A stretch of 24,164 nt of DNA, taken from positions 1 through 24,164 of IMG/VR virus record IMGVR_UViG_3300023174_000618; one strand, given 5' to 3'. Below, in pieces: positions 1,716 through 20,309 of the stretch (within the stretch, counting starts at the first letter, position 1; each line of letters begins with the position of its first letter). Made by a program: the position numbers and the translations under genes. Source of the DNA: a virus. The notes under the pieces are model-generated. The model was not told the origin of the DNA, searched no databases, and saw only the letters and a list, made by a program, of their open reading frames with translations.

Positions 1716-2080
1716 CAGACGAAGAGGATTTGGAGAGGCTGCGCCATCATGTGGAGGCGGCACTAGAATACTCTGGAGGAACTCATGGAATTGAGGACAT
1801 TGCAGAGGGACTCAAAAAAGGCAGATTTCAATTGTGGCCTGCTGATGACTCTGTGGTGGTGACTGAGATCATTGTCTACCCGCGACTCAAGAATTTGCAC
1901 TTCTTTCTTGCTGGCGGCGACCTAGATGAACTCCGACTGATGCGACCTTTGATCGAATCGTGGGGTAAGAGCATGGGTTGCACGCGAGTGTCTTTAGCTG
2001 GCCGTGAGGGTTGGGCAAAGACATTCTTACGAGATGAGGGTTACAAGCCAAAGTGGTTTGTATTAAGCAAGGACTTGTAA
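1712..2080 (+). CDS. GNAT-like small virion-region protein
   Basis: 122 residues. The frame is closed upstream at 1706-1708 (TAA), so TTG at 1712 is the first possible start. It overlaps the upstream stop as TTGA, implying translational coupling. The protein has an acidic helical N-terminus, a strand-rich middle (VVTEIIVYPRLKNLHFFLAGG) and a C-terminus (GCTRVSLAGREGWAKTFLRDEGY) that looks like the last helix and strands of a Gcn5-related acetyltransferase fold. GNAT-like proteins at this place, next to tail and ejection genes, are known from T7-like phages (gp13 type), where they are structural or assembly proteins and not proven enzymes. I see no clear acetyl-CoA loop (Q/R-x-x-G-x-G/A), so catalysis is doubtful. 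The next gene's ATG follows its stop with no gap. Confidence 0.55.
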   Translation: MTDEEDLERLRHHVEAALEYSGGTHGIEDIAEGLKKGRFQLWPADDSVVVTEIIVYPRLKNLHFFLAGGDLDELRLMRPLIESWGKSMGCTRVSLAGREGWAKTFLRDEGYKPKWFVLSKDL

Positions 2081-3121
2081 ATGACATACGAAGAACTGAT
2101 CGCGGGTAAAGGATGGACGAATCTGCCGCCACTTCAATTTGGTGGTGGTCTTCTTGACGCGCCTGAAATCAATCGCTATCAGCAGATCATGTCGCAGATG
2201 CAGCAGACTGAGCAAGTGCCATCAGGATTGCTTGATGCAACTGGTGGATATCGTCCTGAGATTTATAACATCACTCCAGATCAGAATCAGGCCATCATAA
2301 AATTTAATTCTGCTGTACAGCAAATACTTGGTGGTGGTAGTTCTAGTGCTGCTGCACAGCAATCAGCCGCACAAGCCGCATTTGCTCAGATGACGCCAGG
2401 CGAGCAAGCCGCAGTACAGGCCATGACAGTTCCAAATCTTGTGAATTTGATGATGCCTTTGCCACTTCAATTGCTTATGAATGTGATGGGCGTTGATGCG
2501 CCTGGCACTACTTCAAGCGGCGGTGTCAGTTCCACTAGCGGCAGTCCTATGGGTGGCATTGCCAGCAAAGGTAATGTTGGTCAGGTTGCTAATGCAAATA
2601 CTACGGCTGGTCTTGCAATTGGTAATGCTATTGGCGGTAATGTTGGCACATCAGTTGGAACTACTGGAGGCGTAAGCTCTTCAAGTGGTAGTGGATTAGG
2701 AGGCATGGGTAGTGGCGCAGCGGGAGTCGCCGCCACAGCAGCCGCTACTGGTGGCGTAGGTGGAGGCGGTGGAGGAAGCGGTGGTGGTGGTTGCTGCTTC
2801 ATCATGCTTGAAGCTCGCTATGGCGATGGCACTATGGATGCTGTTGTTCGCAGATACCGCGATGAGAAGATCACCGACCACAACAAGCGTGGCTATTACA
2901 AGTTGGCTGAAGTCTTTGTGCCACTGATGCGCCAATCCAAACTATTCAAATTCATGGTTGCTAAGACCTTTTCCGATCCTCTTGTCTCTTACGGCAAGTG
3001 GCACTATGGGCAAAATAAGCATGGTTGGATATTCAAGCCAGTTGAGAAATTTTGGATGCAAGTTTTCAATGTGTTGGGAAGCGACACAAAGTTCATTCGT
3101 GAAAACGGCGAAACGATTTAA
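2081..3121 (+). CDS. Gly-rich inner-virion protein with CFI-box-like C-terminal domain
   Basis: 346 residues in three parts. Residues 1-135 are Gln/Ala-rich and helical. Residues 140-237 are a low-complexity Gly/Ser/Thr/Ala linker that ends in a run of glycines. Residues 238-346 are a compact domain that opens with CCFI and continues with YGDG, VVRRYRDE, RGYYKLAEVFVPLM and KTFSDPLVSYGKW. The Cys-Phe-Ile opening after a flexible linker, followed by Tyr-Gly and an Arg-x-(F/Y)-Arg-Asp helix, matches the layout of the bacterial CFI-box-CTERM domain (CFIATAAYG...LRxFRD). That family name is from recollection. Position among ejection genes suggests an injected or internal virion protein. The start is the ATG abutting the upstream TAA. 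The linker may have shadow reading frames, including a Leu-rich one, which I do not regard as genes. Confidence 0.65.
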   Translation: MTYEELIAGKGWTNLPPLQFGGGLLDAPEINRYQQIMSQMQQTEQVPSGLLDATGGYRPEIYNITPDQNQAIIKFNSAVQQILGGGSSSAAAQQSAAQAAFAQMTPGEQAAVQAMTVPNLVNLMMPLPLQLLMNVMGVDAPGTTSSGGVSSTSGSPMGGIASKGNVGQVANANTTAGLAIGNAIGGNVGTSVGTTGGVSSSSGSGLGGMGSGAAGVAATAAATGGVGGGGGGSGGGGCCFIMLEARYGDGTMDAVVRRYRDEKITDHNKRGYYKLAEVFVPLMRQSKLFKFMVAKTFSDPLVSYGKWHYGQNKHGWIFKPVEKFWMQVFNVLGSDTKFIRENGETI

Positions 3122-3131
3122 GGGGTAAATC

Positions 3132-3884
3132 ATGAGCAAAGACAGCGGCGGCAGCCAAACAGCAACCACCAGCATTGATCCACAGATCAAGGCTGCGTAT
3201 CTACAAAACTTGGAGCAGGCAAAAAGCGTTGCTGGCGCATTGCCAGTTCAGCAGTTTGCAGGCTTCAATCCTCTGTATCAGCAGGGTGAAGAGCAACTTG
3301 TCAATCTTGGACTCAAGCCATTCACTGGTGCTGACATTCAGCAGTTCATGAATCCTTATGAGCAGCAAGTCATCCAAGGCACATTGGGCGACATTGAGCA
3401 GGCACGCCAAATGGCTGCACTGCAAACTGCAAATCAGGCGACAGCGGCCAAAGCGTTTGGCGGTTCTCGCTACGGCGTCCAGCAATCACTGACAGATCAG
3501 GCGGCATTGCAGCAGGCAGCGAAGACAGCGGCGCAGATGCGTCAGGCTGGCTATGGTGCAGCCACACAGACTGCTTTGAATGCTCGCAACTTAGGATTGA
3601 CTGGAGCGCAGGCCGTCATGGGTGCTGGCGGTGCTCGCCAACAGTTGGAGCAAGCAAGGCTTGATGCAGCTCGCAATATCGGTTTGCAAAGACTTGGCGT
3701 TGTCCAAAGTGCATTGAGTGGTCAGCCTGCCAATGTTGGCGGTACAACAAGCCAGCCAACATATCGCAATCAAGCTGTTGGCGCTTTAGGTGGCGCTTTG
3801 GCTGGAGCACAATTAGGTTCAATTGTTCCTGGTATTGGTACAGGCATAGGCGCAGGCATTGGTGGTCTGATTGGATTACTCTGA
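3132..3884 (+). CDS. Probable ejected inner-virion protein with C-terminal glycine-zipper
   Basis: 250 residues, preceded by AAGGGG at good spacing. Residues 1-100 include FNPLYQQGEEQLV and MNPYEQQVIQGTLGDIEQAR. Residues 100-190 are Ala/Gln-rich helix with the AFGGSRYGVQQSL block that recurs in phage DNA-transfer proteins. The last 40 residues are a Gly-rich hydrophobic segment (ALGGALAGAQLGSIVPG, then GTGIGAGIGGLIGLL). A glycine-zipper end of this kind suits insertion into, or oligomerisation within, a membrane during DNA delivery. I infer an ejection protein. No enzymatic motif is visible. It belongs to a co-oriented set of four genes of similar composition between the tail protein and 7416. 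Its stop is part of the TGAGGTAAAAAATG junction to the next gene. Confidence 0.6.
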   Translation: MSKDSGGSQTATTSIDPQIKAAYLQNLEQAKSVAGALPVQQFAGFNPLYQQGEEQLVNLGLKPFTGADIQQFMNPYEQQVIQGTLGDIEQARQMAALQTANQATAAKAFGGSRYGVQQSLTDQAALQQAAKTAAQMRQAGYGAATQTALNARNLGLTGAQAVMGAGGARQQLEQARLDAARNIGLQRLGVVQSALSGQPANVGGTTSQPTYRNQAVGALGGALAGAQLGSIVPGIGTGIGAGIGGLIGLL

Positions 3885-7418: not shown

Positions 7419-7799
7419 TCAATTCGCTGGTGTGTTACTTCCATAAAAAGCAGCCACCAGCGGGTCACGCTTAATCTTCCACTTCTTTGCTCTTTCCTTT
7501 GCCATGCGAAAAGCATGATCGTCCAAGGACTCCTTGGCTCGCCAGCGTTTGAGCCTCTCTTGCGCCGTCATAGGTTTAGGCTTGACGGCATCAGAGCCTA
7601 TCCCATGCCGGTACACGGCCACCAGCACATTGCCTGATCTGCGCCACTCTTGGATGTGGACAACGCCTTGCACTCGCAGCTTGTTGATCAGTATCTGAGC
7701 TGATCTTTCAGTGCAAAAAACCTTGGCGGCAACCTCTGGCGCGGTGCATCCAACGCGCTGGAGCAGATTGATGATGCGTGGCAGCCGAACAGATTTCAT
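7419..7799 (-). CDS. Winged-helix DNA-binding regulator
   Basis: 126 residues. Residues 5-65 form a winged-helix: LPRIINLLQRVG, then TAPEVAAKVFCTERSAQILI as the helix-turn-helix, then a beta wing (VVHIQEWRRSGNVLVAVYRHG). Residues 75-126 are basic and Arg/Lys-rich (QERLKRWRAKE, RMAKERAKKWKIKRD), a likely second nucleic-acid contact. The product should be a phage transcription factor. No SD precedes the ATG. A sigma70-like promoter (TTGACG, 18 nt, TACAAT) ends 6 nt before the ATG, so the transcript is predicted to be leaderless, as for some phage repressors. The palindrome TGACTATGTAGTCA lies inside that promoter spacer, suggesting autoregulation. It is divergent from the peptidase-like gene and convergent with the ejection gene. 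Confidence 0.7.
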   Translation of the reverse strand: MKSVRLPRIINLLQRVGCTAPEVAAKVFCTERSAQILINKLRVQGVVHIQEWRRSGNVLVAVYRHGIGSDAVKPKPMTAQERLKRWRAKESLDDHAFRMAKERAKKWKIKRDPLVAAFYGSNTPAN

Positions 7800-7802
7800 T
7801 CA

Positions 7803-7839
7803 AATATTGTAAATGACTATGTAGTCAAGCGTCAATATT
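7803..7839. promoter_or_regulatory. Nested inverted repeats, candidate operator
   Basis: An inner palindrome TGACTA-TG-TAGTCA (7814-7827) sits almost concentrically inside an outer inverted repeat AATATTG (7803-7809) and CAATATT (7833-7839). The two dyads share a centre to within one base. They lie in the 77-nt gap between the divergent winged-helix and peptidase-like genes and overlap the leftward promoter. This is the most likely binding site for the adjacent winged-helix protein. The dyads are seen directly; the binding role is inference. Confidence 0.6.
7806..7835 (-). promoter_or_regulatory. Leftward promoter of winged-helix gene, leaderless transcript predicted
   Basis: Reading leftward, -35 TTGACG (7835-7830), an 18-nt spacer and -10 TACAAT (7811-7806), with five of six consensus matches each. 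Seven bases beyond the -10 box lies 7799, the A of the start codon. With no SD upstream, a leaderless mRNA is the natural prediction. A weaker rightward candidate (ATGACT, 17 nt, TATTCT, 7813-7841) overlaps it and could serve the divergent operon. Confidence 0.5.
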
Positions 7840-7876
7840 CTTCTTTTTGTCATCTTTTTATGTGTTAATCCACTAC

Positions 7877-8248
7877 ATGAAGAATGTGCCAGATGTTAAT
7901 CAGGCGAAAGAGTTTCACAGCTACCTAATGAAGTGGCAGGAAATATTATCTTTGGGCGATTGGCGCATAGAGAGAGTCAACAAGATCGCCAAGGATGCAA
8001 TGGCGTCAGTTGAGTTTGATCCACCAGCAAGGCTTGCGAGCTACAGGCTTGGGTCATTTGGAGGTGAAGAGATAAACAGCGCCAGTCTTGAGATGACGGC
8101 GCTGCATGAGTGTTTGCATATCCTTTTACACGACCTTGTTGAGACAACGGCAGACAGGAATTCGACAGAAGAACAGCGAGAAATGGCCGAACACAGGGTT
8201 ATCAATTTGCTTGAAAAACTTCTACTGAAAGAAAATCATGGGCGGTAA
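7877..8248 (+). CDS. Small HExxH metallopeptidase-like protein
   Basis: 123 residues from ATG 7877. In-frame GTG (7862) and TTG (7847) lie upstream but none has an SD, so the start is uncertain. The core is TALHECLHILLHD with a zinc-binding HECLH at residues 77-81. A C-terminal helix EEQREMAEHRVINLLEKLL offers Glu105 or His106 as a third ligand. The upstream strand region (VEFDPPARLASYRLGSF, then INSASLEMTALHE) fits the edge strand that precedes the active-site helix in minimal zincins. Similar short zincin-like proteins occur in phages of unknown function. The substrate is unknown. It overlaps the phosphoesterase gene by 11 nt and so is probably co-translated with it. A non-catalytic structural zinc role remains possible. 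Confidence 0.6.
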   Translation: MKNVPDVNQAKEFHSYLMKWQEILSLGDWRIERVNKIAKDAMASVEFDPPARLASYRLGSFGGEEINSASLEMTALHECLHILLHDLVETTADRNSTEEQREMAEHRVINLLEKLLLKENHGR

Positions 8249-12286: not shown

Positions 12287-13117
12287 TCCATTCAAGATCA
12301 CCGAGCCAACCTGTATCAGCTTTAGCGGTGGGCGCACCAGCGCCTATATGCTTTGGCGTGTAATTCAAAGCGGGGGGGGCAACTTCCATGCCAAGCCGTT
12401 GTCTGTTTTGCCAATACTGGCAAGGAAGATGAGGCTACTTTGAGATTCGTACAAGCCTGCTCTGATAACTGGAATGTTGAGATTCATTGGATTGAATATC
12501 GAAATAACGATATAGGTTTTGCCAAAGTTGACTTTGAAACTGCTTCTCGAAATGGCGAACCCTTTGAGGAGCTTATAAATAAAGTGCAATTCTTGCCAAA
12601 CTCAGCCATGAGAATATGTACTACCCATTTAAAGATTAGACCTTTTCGCAAATATTTGGACAGCATTGGAGTGCATCGTCCAGTGCAATTTGTTGGCATC
12701 AGAGCAGATGAAATGCGTAGAGTTGTAAAAATTAGAGCAAATCCAGAAGCAGAAGGGATGGAAAGATATTTGCCTCTTGCCTCTGCTGGCGTTGATGTAC
12801 ACGCAATTAATGAGTTTTGGAATAAGCAAGATTTCAACTTAAACCTGACAACCTTTAATGGAAAAACTTTGGCGGGTAATTGTGATTTATGTTTTTTAAA
12901 GCCAGCATCGCAAATACTTAGCCTTATTAAAGAAAAGCCTGAACGTGCAACTTGGTGGGCAAAAATGGAAAGTTTAGATTTGGAGAAAAGTGTCAACGGC
13001 AACAAACAATTTTCAAAAGATCGTCCATCCTATGCACAGATGCTTAAATTTTCAAAGGAACAACTTGATATGTTTGACCCCAATGAAGAAGCAATCTCAT
13101 GCTTCTGCGGAGACTAA
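12279..13117 (+). CDS. PAPS reductase-like protein, frame broken at an 8-G tract
   Basis: The N-terminal part begins at ATG 12279 (MVDPFKITEPTCISFSGGRTS) and holds the PP-loop SGGRTSAYM. It stays in that frame until the G-run 12372-12379, after which it would end at 12443. From the G-run the other frame (to 13117) continues the same protein: AVVCFANTGKEDEATLRFVQ, MRICTTHLKIRPFRKYL, QFVGIRADEMRRVVKIRA, NCDLCFLK and a terminal CFCGD. One extra G or two fewer Gs would restore one intact ORF of about 280 residues, which matches phage homologues by recollection. The family includes adenylyl-sulfate/PAPS reductases and the DndC-type phosphorothioation enzymes. Conserved Cys pairs suggest an Fe-S cluster. 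Alternatives are an assembly error, a real null allele, -1 slippage, or phase variation. Confidence 0.75.
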
Positions 13118-15145: not shown

Positions 15146-17191
15146 ATGCAAGCAGAACAAATAGCCAAGAGCTTGGGCAACGCGAAAAGAGCCAACGGCC
15201 AATGGGTAGCGTCATGCCCAGTACCAAGTCACGGCAAAGGCAACGGCGACAAGAATCCAAGTCTCAGCGTACACATTGATGATGAGGGCAAGCCACTATT
15301 TCACTGTCATGGTGGCTGCACACAAGAATCAGTATTCCAAACCATCAGGGATATGCAGCTCTTACCCGAATTAGAAGAGCGCCCAGATCCACTCGCCAAC
15401 ATCAAGCCTCTACCCAAAGTCGAGTTCCAGCAGGAGTGGCAGTACCAGGACGAGGACCGCGTCACTGTATTCGTCAAGCACCGGCTGCGCGTAGGCGAGA
15501 CAGGCAAAACCTATCGTCTATACAAAGTAGATACAGACGGAAAACGCTACCCGACATTGGGTGATGCACGCATAGTCCCATACAAGTTACCCGAATTGCT
15601 GGACGCAAAGACAGCGGGAAGAATAATCTATTTGGCCGAGGGCGAAAAGGCGGTGGACGCGCTGATGTCACTCGGCGTGGTGGCGACCACCGCGCACAGT
15701 GGCGCCGGCCATTGGCCCGAGGCCATCACCGAATATTTCGCTGGCGCGAATGTGGTGATCCTGCCAGACAACGATCTGAGTGGCTGGAGCTACGCACGCA
15801 AGGCAGCAGAGGCCATCCTGCCCATCGCCAAGGCACTCAAGGTAGTTGACCTCAGACTGCAGGAGCAAGGCGATGACGCATACGAGTTCATTGAGGCAGG
15901 CGGCGGACGCGCAGAGCTGGCGGCGTTGGTCAAGGCGGCGCCAAAGGTCAACAACGTGGATGATGTAACGATACCCGAAAGACTTCAGGCGATTCAGCCG
16001 AATGCGCCAATTGATGTGCCGCCACCACAAGCAGAGGACATCGCCAAAGAGTTCGCGCCTGATCCATTAAAAGAAGCACCAAAGCCAACCAAGACCATCA
16101 AGATTGAATCTTGGGACACCATACAAGATGAACCAGTCGAGTGGCTGATTGATGGTGTCATCCCCAAAGGGTCATTCACGGCGTTGTATGGACCGCCAGG
16201 CTCATTCAAGTCATTCATAGCCTTGGACATTGCCGAGGCCATAGCGACAGGGCGTACATGGATGGGTAGGCCAGTCAAGCAGACAGGCGCGGTGCTGTAC
16301 TTGGCCGGCGAGGGCTTTGGCGGTATTGGAGCCAGGATCAAAGCCTGCAAGTTGCATCACCAAACACAGGACGGCGCACCGATCTACATAGTCAGACACC
16401 AGCTCAACCTTAGATCCAGCGCCGAGGACTTCAACGCCTTAATGATGGCCGTGGTGACGCTGGTGGAGCAGACAGGCATGGAATTCAGCCTCGCCATTGT
16501 GGATACGCTCGCCAGAGCATTTGGCGGCGGTAACGAGAACAGCTCAGAAGACATGGGTGCATTCATCACGGCCATGGGTAAGGTGCAGGAATTCCTCAAC
16601 TGCGCCTTGATGGTGCTGCACCATAGCGGAAAGGATGCCGCTAAAGGACTGCGCGGCCATTCATCACTCCTTGGCGCCGTAGATACAGAGCTGGAGCTGC
16701 TGCGCTTTGACGAGCAGATGAAAGGCGTACTCACCATCAGCAAGCAAAAGGACGGCGCAGACAACGAGCGATTTGGCTTTGAGATGGTGGAGGTAGAAAT
16801 CAGGCCAGCGGGACTCGGACTGAGCGATCCAGTGGTCAGCCTGGCGGTAAAAGCCAGCGATTCAGCCGTCAATGAGATGTCAAAGAAGACCAAAAACAAC
16901 GCTGGAAAGGGTAGAAACCAGTCCATCGAGATGATGAGCCTTGAAACTGTTGTGAAATCAAAAGGAATACTAAGGTTCATTGAGGGGCAGCAGCGTATGG
17001 CCGTCAATTTGACTGATTGGAAAGCCGAATTCAGATCCAAAAAGGGCATCACCGATGACTCAACCGACAACCAAAAAAAGGCTTTTGACAAGGCATGGGA
17101 GCGTGCTCAGAAGAGGTTGCAAGAGTCTGGAGAGATCGGAATTAGGGACAAATCAGCATGGTTGATGCCTTTTTTAAACAGTCAAGATTAG
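15146..17191 (+). CDS. Primase-helicase fusion (Zn finger, TOPRIM, RecA-like helicase)
   Basis: 681 residues. A zinc-binding primase finger is visible: Cys24, His29 (CPVPSH), Cys54 and Cys58 (HCHGGC). Then come TOPRIM motifs YLAEGEKAVDAL (Glu165) and VVILPDNDLSGW (Asp208, Asp210). Finally there is a RecA/AAA_25-like helicase with Walker A GPPGSFKS (349-356), LAIVDTLARAF (Asp453), and VLHHSGKD (490-497). Residues 600-680 resemble a winged accessory end. It would prime and unwind at the fork, replacing separate DnaG and DnaB. This is the RepA/AAA_25 type of helicase, not a DnaB/T7 gp4 core. No SD precedes ATG 15146; a strong terminator lies just upstream. A repeat cluster follows the gene. Confidence 0.85.
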   Translation: MQAEQIAKSLGNAKRANGQWVASCPVPSHGKGNGDKNPSLSVHIDDEGKPLFHCHGGCTQESVFQTIRDMQLLPELEERPDPLANIKPLPKVEFQQEWQYQDEDRVTVFVKHRLRVGETGKTYRLYKVDTDGKRYPTLGDARIVPYKLPELLDAKTAGRIIYLAEGEKAVDALMSLGVVATTAHSGAGHWPEAITEYFAGANVVILPDNDLSGWSYARKAAEAILPIAKALKVVDLRLQEQGDDAYEFIEAGGGRAELAALVKAAPKVNNVDDVTIPERLQAIQPNAPIDVPPPQAEDIAKEFAPDPLKEAPKPTKTIKIESWDTIQDEPVEWLIDGVIPKGSFTALYGPPGSFKSFIALDIAEAIATGRTWMGRPVKQTGAVLYLAGEGFGGIGARIKACKLHHQTQDGAPIYIVRHQLNLRSSAEDFNALMMAVVTLVEQTGMEFSLAIVDTLARAFGGGNENSSEDMGAFITAMGKVQEFLNCALMVLHHSGKDAAKGLRGHSSLLGAVDTELELLRFDEQMKGVLTISKQKDGADNERFGFEMVEVEIRPAGLGLSDPVVSLAVKASDSAVNEMSKKTKNNAGKGRNQSIEMMSLETVVKSKGILRFIEGQQRMAVNLTDWKAEFRSKKGITDDSTDNQKKAFDKAWERAQKRLQESGEIGIRDKSAWLMPFLNSQD

Positions 17192-18110: not shown

Positions 18111-18542
18111 ATGCCAGGCAATCCAAAGCGTAGGAAAGACATTGCATTCCTCAACGATATGCCTGAAGAGATGATCTTCAGCATGGTTGAAAGCGGCAAA
18201 AGCATTGCCGACATATGCGTGAGCTTGGGCATCAGCAAGCGTGCGCTAGACGATTGGATTGAGGAAAACGATCACGGTGCTATGATTACGCGCGCGCGTG
18301 TGCGTGCCGCCGATCTGATGGCTTGTGACACGATCAAGATAGCGGATGACATGGATGTCGACCATCCGCAGCGCGATGTTCAGCGCATCCGCACTCGCCA
18401 ATGGCTGGCCGAGCGATGGGATCAGAAGACTTATGGCTTACAAAAGGCGCAGCAGATCAACATCAACGTGCAGGACCTACGCATGGCCGCGTTGCGCCAT
18501 GTCGAGGTGATCGATGACTTATCCACAGAAAAAGGCGCATGA
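18111..18542 (+). CDS. terS: Terminase small subunit-like protein
   Basis: 143 residues with AGAGGGG upstream. Residues 17-55 form a helix-turn-helix (MPEEMIFSMVESGKSIADIC and GISKRALDDWIEEND). A conserved-looking helical segment follows (RVRAADLMACDTIKIADD), then RIRTRQWLAERWDQKTYG, which is characteristic of the small terminase family (xxTRKWLAxKxxPKxYG). TerS recognises viral DNA and feeds it to TerL. Its C-terminus spans a DnaA-box sequence (18519-18527). terL follows after a 291-nt gap, unusually long for this pair. The assignment rests on the WLAxxWxxKxYG block and context. Confidence 0.8.
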   Translation: MPGNPKRRKDIAFLNDMPEEMIFSMVESGKSIADICVSLGISKRALDDWIEENDHGAMITRARVRAADLMACDTIKIADDMDVDHPQRDVQRIRTRQWLAERWDQKTYGLQKAQQININVQDLRMAALRHVEVIDDLSTEKGA

Positions 18543-18712
18543 TGCACACATTGCCCTGTGGACAACTGCAAACTGCCTGCGGATTAAGCAAAATCGCTGT
18601 AGTTATCCACAATAAAGTTAACATAATGAACATCGTGTTAAACCGATTATGTAAGGTTCATGTAAGAAAGTATATAGATCAATGACTTACCGATGCATCG
18701 ACCTGTGGATAA
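18519..18712. other. Candidate DnaA-dependent origin (DnaA-box cluster)
   Basis: Three perfect consensus boxes: TTATCCACA at 18519-18527 and 18603-18611, and its inverse TGTGGATAA at 18704-18712. There is also a one-mismatch box TGTGGACAA at 18557-18565. Between the third and fourth boxes lies an AT-rich stretch (18612-18690) with overlapping dyads ACATAA/TTATGT and ATGAAC/GTTCAT. A consensus 9-mer is expected less than once per 24 kb on both strands, so three within 200 nt is far from chance. The terS-terL gap is otherwise non-coding. The motif is seen; origin function is inferred. Confidence 0.6.
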
Positions 18713-18769
18713 CTTTGCAGCCGTTTACTGGCAGCAAGCGGGTGGCCGTGGCTGGCGCGGCGGCTGCGA

Positions 18770-18860
18770 CCCCCCCCTTGCTCGCGGCGGCGGGGGCGGC
18801 TGATGCAGCACCTAAACACATATCGCCACACGCATGACGACCCCCACCCCCCTACCCCCC
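18770..18860. repeat. C-homopolymer tracts at the terL start
   Basis: A run of eight C (18770-18777), a GC-rich trinucleotide-like stretch (GGCGGCGGGGGCGGC around 18786-18800), and then C5, C6 and C6 tracts (18841-18860). On the - strand these give long G-tracts able to form quadruplexes. They encode the Pro-rich N-terminus of terL, which homologues may lack. The tracts are prone to indels, so the terL start here is uncertain. Confidence 0.5.
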
Positions 18861-20309
18861 ACTGCGACAAAGCCTGTCCCGAAAAAAAATTCCAATGATT
18901 TGGTGGTGAATAACCCATTTGTCGAATTCGTCAAGCTCTACAAGAATAACCCTGTCCTGTTTGTCAAGGAGGTGCTGAACACTGAGCCTGATGCGTGGCA
19001 AGTGGAGTTCCTCAATCACATCGCCGCTGGAAATCGCCGCATAAGCGTACGTTCAGGCCACGGCGTAGGTAAGTCCACGGCGTCAGCCTGGGCGATGATT
19101 TGGTATCTATTCCTGCGCTTCCCTGTCAAGGTGGTGGTGACTGCACCGACATCCAGCCAGCTATACGATGCATTATTTGCGGAGGTTAAGCGTTGGGTTA
19201 AGGTGCTGCCCCCTATGCTGGCTGACCAGTTGGAGGTGAAGCAGGATCGCATCGAGGTGAAAGACGCCAACGAGGAGGCGTTCATCTCAGCGCGTACATC
19301 GAGAGCAGAGCAGCCAGAGGCGCTCCAAGGCGTCCACAGCGACAACGTGATGCTGGTGGCTGACGAGGCGTCAGGCGTGCCTGAAAAGGTGTTTGAGGCG
19401 GCATCAGGATCAATGTCGGGGCATAACGCCGTCACGCTACTGCTAGGAAACCCTGTGCGTTCCAGTGGTTTCTTCTACGACACCCATAATCGATTGGCGG
19501 GTGACTGGGTCACCATGCGCGTGTCCTGCGCCGACTCGCCCCGAGTGTCTGAGGCTTACATTGAAGAGATGAAAGCGCGGTACGGCGAGGAGTCAAACGC
19601 CTACCGCATCCGCGTATTGGGTGAGTTTCCGAGAAGTGATGAAGATACTGTGATCCCCATGGAGTTACTGGACTTGGCGATGAATCGGGATGTTGAGGCG
19701 AGTCCTTATGCGCCTTTGGTGTGGGGATTGGACGTTGCGCGGTTTGGCTCAGATCGGTCTGCGCTGTGCAAGAGGCGTGGTAACGCGGTGATTGAGCCTA
19801 TCAAGACTTGGAAAAACTTGGACCTGATGCAGTTGACTGGTGCGGTGGTGGCTGAGTTTGAGGCGTTGGCGCCGAGCGACAGGCCAGAGGAGATACTGGT
19901 TGACTCCATTGGATTGGGGGCTGGCGTGGTGGATCGGTTGAAAGAGCTAAATCTTCCAGCTCGCGGCATCAATGTCTCTGAGTCCCCTGCCATGGGCGGT
20001 ACTTACAGGAATCTAAAGGCCGAGCTTTGGTACAAGGCCAAGGCGTGGCTGGAGCAGCGCGACTGTAAATTGCCCAAAGATGAGCTGCTGGTGGCTGAAT
20101 TGGCGACTGTCAGGTATATGTTTACATCCAACGGCAAGATTCAGATCGAGAGCAAAGATGACATCAAAAAGCGTGGATTGGCGAGTCCTGACAAGGCTGA
20201 TGCGTTTTGCTTGACTTTTGCATCTGATGCGGTAATTGGCATGATGGGTTCAAAGTCAAGTGCCAAATGGAATCAGCCGTTGAAAAGAAACCTCTCAAGG
20301 GTTGCATAA
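18834..20309 (+). CDS. terL: Terminase large subunit
   Basis: 491 residues. N-terminal ATPase: SGHGVGKSTASAWAM as Walker A (74-81), then VVTAPTSSQLYD, and VMLVADEASGV with Asp177-Glu178 as Walker B. C-terminal RNase H-like nuclease: VWGLDVARFGSD (Asp300), ILVDSIGLGAG (Asp357), and SPDKADAFCL (Asp453/456). TLLLGNPVRSSGFFYDT is the coupling region. It packages DNA into procapsids through the portal encoded 3.3 kb downstream. The ATG at 18834 has no SD, and residues 1-25 come from C-tract sequence; conservation probably begins near NPFVEFVKLY, so the start may be later. Confidence 0.9.
   Translation: MTTPTPLPPTATKPVPKKNSNDLVVNNPFVEFVKLYKNNPVLFVKEVLNTEPDAWQVEFLNHIAAGNRRISVRSGHGVGKSTASAWAMIWYLFLRFPVKVVVTAPTSSQLYDALFAEVKRWVKVLPPMLADQLEVKQDRIEVKDANEEAFISARTSRAEQPEALQGVHSDNVMLVADEASGVPEKVFEAASGSMSGHNAVTLLLGNPVRSSGFFYDTHNRLAGDWVTMRVSCADSPRVSEAYIEEMKARYGEESNAYRIRVLGEFPRSDEDTVIPMELLDLAMNRDVEASPYAPLVWGLDVARFGSDRSALCKRRGNAVIEPIKTWKNLDLMQLTGAVVAEFEALAPSDRPEEILVDSIGLGAGVVDRLKELNLPARGINVSESPAMGGTYRNLKAELWYKAKAWLEQRDCKLPKDELLVAELATVRYMFTSNGKIQIESKDDIKKRGLASPDKADAFCLTFASDAVIGMMGSKSSAKWNQPLKRNLSRVA

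Follow-up and report, generated by a model that had tools for sequence, protein, structure and literature searches.

The psi site of plasmid pSC101 and the cer site of ColE1 combine arms that resemble the host dif site with a centre that is not the chromosomal one, have accessory sites around the core, and come without a recombinase of their own. Most of the Xer sites so far described in phages belong to filamentous or small icosahedral ones and are used for integration; the IMEX phages (CTXphi, VGJphi, TLCphi and the enterogokushoviruses) carry a dif-like site, use the XerCD of the host and lack an integrase, and those described integrate at dif. In the headful phage P1, loxP is a site-specific cyclisation and dimer-resolution site and DnaA boxes are also present in the genome, which encodes both Cre and RepA. 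Clustered, oriented DnaA boxes together with an IHF-like site are found in oriC-type and plasmid origins.

The locus described here lies in a 24,164-base (24-kb) fragment of an uncultured environmental phage from IMG/VR, the whole of which is referred to below as the window. It is situated between terS (18111-18542, plus strand), encoding an Sf6-like small terminase subunit of 143 aa (PHROG 1482, E=1.7e-14; Pfam Sf6_terminase PF20901, E=1.4e-13), and terL (18834-20309, plus strand), encoding a large terminase subunit of 491 aa (PHROG 2, E=1.6e-47). It resembles psi and cer in its arms, its centre and the lack of a recognisable recombinase of its own. As candidate accessory sites the phage core is flanked by DnaA boxes and an IHF-like motif, whereas the accessory proteins of psi and cer are ArgR or ArcA with PepA, and these sit on plasmids rather than between terS and terL of a tailed phage. 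By contrast with the IMEX phages, the present phages are tailed and of 34-38 kb, their centres are mostly unlike that of dif, and no prophage was found. Unlike in P1, the recombinase would be that of the host, and boxes and core form a single 194-bp cassette; unlike in oriC-type and plasmid origins, no strong unwinding element, skew inflection or iterons were recognised at the locus, which has an Xer core in its middle. The components are known, but the literature searched, which was mostly without subscription journals, seems not to describe them together at the terminase locus of a tailed phage; nor did it yield a report of tailed phages with an Xer site between terS and terL.

DnaA boxes and a putative Xer core

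Three exact DnaA boxes and one near-match had been predicted at 18519-18712, and all four were found where they had been placed. R1 (18519-18527, plus strand), R3 (18603-18611, plus strand) and R4 (18704-18712, minus strand) are exact copies of TTATCCACA, while R2 (18557-18565, minus strand) is the near-match TGTGGACAA, equivalent to TTGTCCACA on the minus strand, and is an exact TTATCCACA in many relatives. The assignment of the cluster to the terS-terL gap holds for R2 to R4, but R1 is within the 3' end of terS, as the codons TTA TCC ACA. No other exact box occurs in the 24,164 bases, for which shuffling gives a mean of 0.15, and three exact boxes anywhere in the window were obtained in only 1 of 100 shuffles. 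Of 91 unique terS genes, 87 retain the codons of R1. Elsewhere in terS these codons are in the minority (TTA is 10.5% of Leu, TCC 8.3% of Ser and ACA 14.1% of Thr codons), which implies that R1 is kept as a DNA word and not only as protein; protein constraint is ruled out by codon usage as the cause of its conservation.

The AT-rich stretch and dyads within the cluster, noted in the original prediction, are real (TTAACATAATG/CATCGTGTTAA at 18618-18641). Judged by sequence, the dyads are not an unwinding element but a putative XerC/XerD core site, which the prediction had missed, at 18616-18643 on the minus strand (GTTTAACACGA-TGTTCA-TTATGTTAACT). Read on that strand, the XerC arm is at 18633-18643, the central hexamer at 18627-18632 and the XerD arm at 18616-18626. 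An 11+6+11 layout is also that of published proteobacterial dif sites, in which the XerD arm, TTATGTTAAAT, is highly conserved (PMC2731167); the dif of Rhodoferax ferrireducens is ACTTGATACGA-TGTATA-TTATGTTAAGT. The sequence features of a dif-type core are present in the phage: an 11-bp XerC arm, a 6-bp centre and an 11-bp conserved XerD arm. Scored with a matrix of 30 Burkholderiaceae dif sites, the core reaches 20.4, whereas the highest score among 300 simulated windows is 7.9, and the next-best unrelated place in the window scores below zero. When the matrix is instead built on 31 published dif sites, the phage core again ranks top in the window, although when the arms alone are scored with it 9 of 300 simulations equal or exceed the core; the XerC arm of the window is a poorer match to known dif sites than are those of sister lineages. 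Shuffles, conservation, matrix simulations and the R1 codons rule out a chance origin for the box cluster and core.

An IHF-like motif, GATCAATGACTTA, is located at 18677-18689 on the plus strand, with one mismatch to the consensus WATCAANNNNTTR. Of 81 unique gaps, 78 have the form [AG]ATCAANNNNTTR beside the core, in 55 cases as a perfect WATCAANNNNTTR, and the motif recurs in a separate lineage (L301/L332); judged by this motif match, IHF is probably part of the DnaA cluster.

Variation among related phages

Searches with TerL and TerS retrieved about 150 IMG/VR loci, with both genes present in 121 entries, the window included. The expectation that boxes should be conserved at the same place in relatives was strongly upheld: across about 120 related loci, boxes recur at offsets of 409 (plus), 447 (minus), 493 (plus) and 594 (minus) from the terS start, even at TerS identities of 58-66%, and each of the 81 unique gap sequences has two to four relaxed boxes, with turnover. 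The R1-R2 spacing changes from 38 to 49 bp through an 11-bp insertion, about one helical turn, while the R2-R3 (46 bp) and R3-R4 (101 bp) spacings are constant in most relatives having those boxes. At the position of R4 some relatives have a plus-strand box and others none, and a more divergent clade has lost R3 and R4 or has other boxes nearby in their place. The most conserved word in the gap is TTAACATAATG, followed to a lesser degree by ATCGTGTTAA. A DNA similarity search with the cassette against phage and plasmid records gave no match.

Scanning for the pattern of a box and then TTAACATAATG brought in further lineages. In all lineages the XerD arm is TTATGTTAA or TTATGTCAA. The core is ACTTTATACGA-CGGGCA-TTATGTTAAGT in a sister group (TerS 45-49%, TerL about 78%), its arms being identical at 22 of 22 positions to a Burkholderiaceae chromosomal dif from which the centre differs (TGTATA in the chromosome). 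Another group (TerL 64%) has AGTTCGTATAA-TACCCA-TTATGTTAAAT, with arms like those of classical proteobacterial dif, and in both groups the core has the opposite orientation with respect to the two genes, though it keeps its place between the terS end and terL. Three further contigs (L286, L316 and L327), in which the terminase and primase queries detect no homologues, carry AAGTAAGATAA-ATAACA-TTATGTTAAGT with boxes. The centres found across lineages are TGTCCA, TGTTCA, TGACTA, TCACTA, CGGGCA, TACCCA, GAGTCA and ATAACA, and never the chromosomal TGTATA; for comparison, the dif core ACGATGTATATTATGTTAA is present in 95 of 401 Burkholderiaceae genomes, in exactly one copy in each. The arms thus track host dif types while the centres vary. 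In the most divergent relatives (L067-L078 and L146) it is chiefly the XerD half that is retained. A 31-kb viral contig (L335) has, at 7500-7900, two Xer cores (GATGCGCATAA-AAGTTA-TTATGTTAAAT and GGTGCGCATAA-TGCATA-TTATGTTAAAT) and three exact DnaA boxes, along with repeats of AACCTCTTGA resembling plasmid iterons.

Core and boxes are not always found together. A contig with 60% TerL identity (L154) and phage C72C1 (TerL 47%) have an Xer core in the terS-terL gap without exact boxes. Conversely, MW202879 (L343; TerL 68%) has no Xer core, but an annotated gamma-delta (serine) resolvase gene adjoins terS, and two exact DnaA boxes 120 bp apart are found upstream of terS (966-1634 and 3059-3187 for the gene and the boxes). 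Hence core and boxes are separable, and the occurrence of either a core without boxes or boxes with a resolvase gene implies that what stays constant in the gap is a recombination function. No tyrosine (PF00589) or serine (PF00239) recombinase domain was detected in the related phage records tested, which took in near-complete relatives of 34-38 kb and for which the controls were positive. As these records gave no recognisable gene, a phage-encoded integrase or resolvase was set aside as the enzyme for the site.

The cassette adjoins terS in every terS lineage examined. In one contig (L299) a 459-aa gene without a PHROG match (1826-3205, minus strand) is inserted between the cassette and terL, from which it follows that the cassette stays with terS, not terL. 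Just before terL, most of the lineages seen have a C7-C9 tract followed by a G-rich word like GGCGGGGGCGGC; in the window this element, kept across lineages, is a C8 tract and then GGCGGGGGCGGC at 18770-18802 (plus strand), and it is found at 313-347 and 19330-19372 in two relatives (L345 and L346, respectively). It may mark a packaging terminus by analogy with phiM5 (TerL 55%), whose annotated 357-bp terminal repeat stops shortly before terL and has a similar element at its terL-side end. The RNA hairpin that the element could form is no more stable than those of shuffled sequences. The ends of relatives' contigs cluster around window positions 18480-18960, 23 of 47 right-hand ends falling within 470 bp; as these ends, though enriched, are spread over about 470 bp, they were dropped as proof of a physical terminus, and the accumulation could also reflect assembly trouble at the C-tract.

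Possible roles of the locus

The locus is probably, if far from certainly, a host-Xer site that resolves multimers of phage DNA or circularises it, combined here with a DnaA cluster. This reading draws on the boxes, the core and their conservation, on host-matched arms with a different centre, and on the lack of a recognisable phage recombinase; the action of XerCD, the binding of DnaA and IHF and the biological outcome we infer as follows. Host XerC and XerD would act on a pair of phage sites, present either in replication concatemers or multimers or, should the redundancy reach across the end of terS, at both ends of a terminally redundant virion genome. Recombination between the two would yield single circles of phage DNA, much as psi and cer do from plasmid dimers and loxP does in P1. 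As the arms are kept and the centre is changed, recombination would be expected between copies of the site itself rather than with dif. Headful packaging and terminal redundancy are suggested by the Sf6-like TerS, and the cassette may lie within the terminal redundancy, a terminal-repeat model drawn from homology to phiM5 alone. The boxes and the IHF-like site could load the replisome, as a DnaA-assisted origin beside a resolution site of the kind seen in many plasmids, or alternatively act as accessory sites, bending and arranging the DNA so as to control recombination.

It is possible, with a likelihood well short of even, that host DnaA, aided by IHF, opens the AT-rich stretch and loads the replication machinery there, with the Xer site as a separate neighbour; this estimate does not exclude an Xer role. 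The idea of a DnaA-using origin, put forward in the original prediction, gains from the two to four strong boxes kept despite turnover in every unique gap, from the presence of the IHF-like motif and from the boxes of MW202879, which show that boxes can stand alone without an Xer core. AT content is also elevated relative to the flanks (40-bp windows at about 18600-18690 reach 70-75%, compared with 50% for the window as a whole), but the peak, at 65-75%, falls on the Xer arms themselves, AT-richness is modest in the lineage with 42-bp spacing, and no strong or 13-mer-like unwinding element was found at the locus. A minimum in GC skew near 18.6 kb, which such an origin had been expected to show, did not materialise: raw cumulative skew climbs along the whole window, and after detrending its minimum is 2-3.5 kb upstream, in the window as in full-length relatives, roughly at the primase-helicase region, such that GC skew is ruled out as evidence for an origin at this site. 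The boxes are absent from L154 and C72C1, and the phage has a replication protein of its own, a primase-helicase of 681 aa (15146-17191, plus strand; PHROGs 906 and 239, Pfam AAA_25). What stands of the original idea is the conserved box cluster, and dependence on host DnaA is plausible. A gene resembling PAPS reductase, of auxiliary type, is located inside the replication region at 12353-13117.

A more specific version of the host-Xer reading, which we regard as unlikely, casts DnaA and IHF as architectural partners of XerCD: a nucleoprotein complex assembled by the boxes on the core would allow only phage copies within the terminal redundancy or the concatemer to recombine, and circularisation would thereby be tied to host replication control.

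Slightly less likely again is that the site is an attP for XerC/XerD integration at chromosomal dif, in the manner of an IMEX, in a temperate phage without an integrase. The match of the arms to host dif and the lack of a recombinase gene would fit, and the centre of the window, TGTTCA, has TGT in common with TGTATA on the XerC side, on which account integration is possible for this lineage; in VGJphi, it is only near the XerD side that attP departs from dif (PMC5357621). However, other lineages keep the arms but have centres (CGGGCA, TACCCA, GAGTCA and TCACTA) with little in common with TGTATA, and no repressor is recognisable beyond a small weak HTH match. Nor do the 401 Burkholderiaceae genomes give support: the closest TerL in them is only 35% identical, chromosomal sites whose centre follows a phage-like pattern number only three, none of them near phage terS, terL or primase genes, and neither prophages integrated at dif nor any close prophages were found in this sample, outside which the host may fall.

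Finally, a packaging signal (pac or terminal repeat) or TerS-binding region, with the boxes read by TerS or regulating late genes, would account for the constant position beside terS and for the C-tract/G-tract element and contig ends located here, but is improbable, because the motifs are those of the host DnaA and Xer consensus, with arms that follow host dif types, which recognition by TerS would not predict, and because a match to a sigma-70 promoter is absent from the region, ruling out such a promoter at the dyad.

Implications for uncultured tailed phages

Many uncultured freshwater tailed phages appear to have an Xer site beside their packaging genes, with arms that are host-like and a centre that is not. 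That the arms follow host dif while the centre does not points to circularisation or multimer resolution by host enzymes. The boxes around the core raise the testable question of whether DnaA starts replication at this locus or controls recombination there. The arms also provide a handle on the hosts of uncultured phages, which here would be Burkholderiaceae of a Comamonadaceae-like type.
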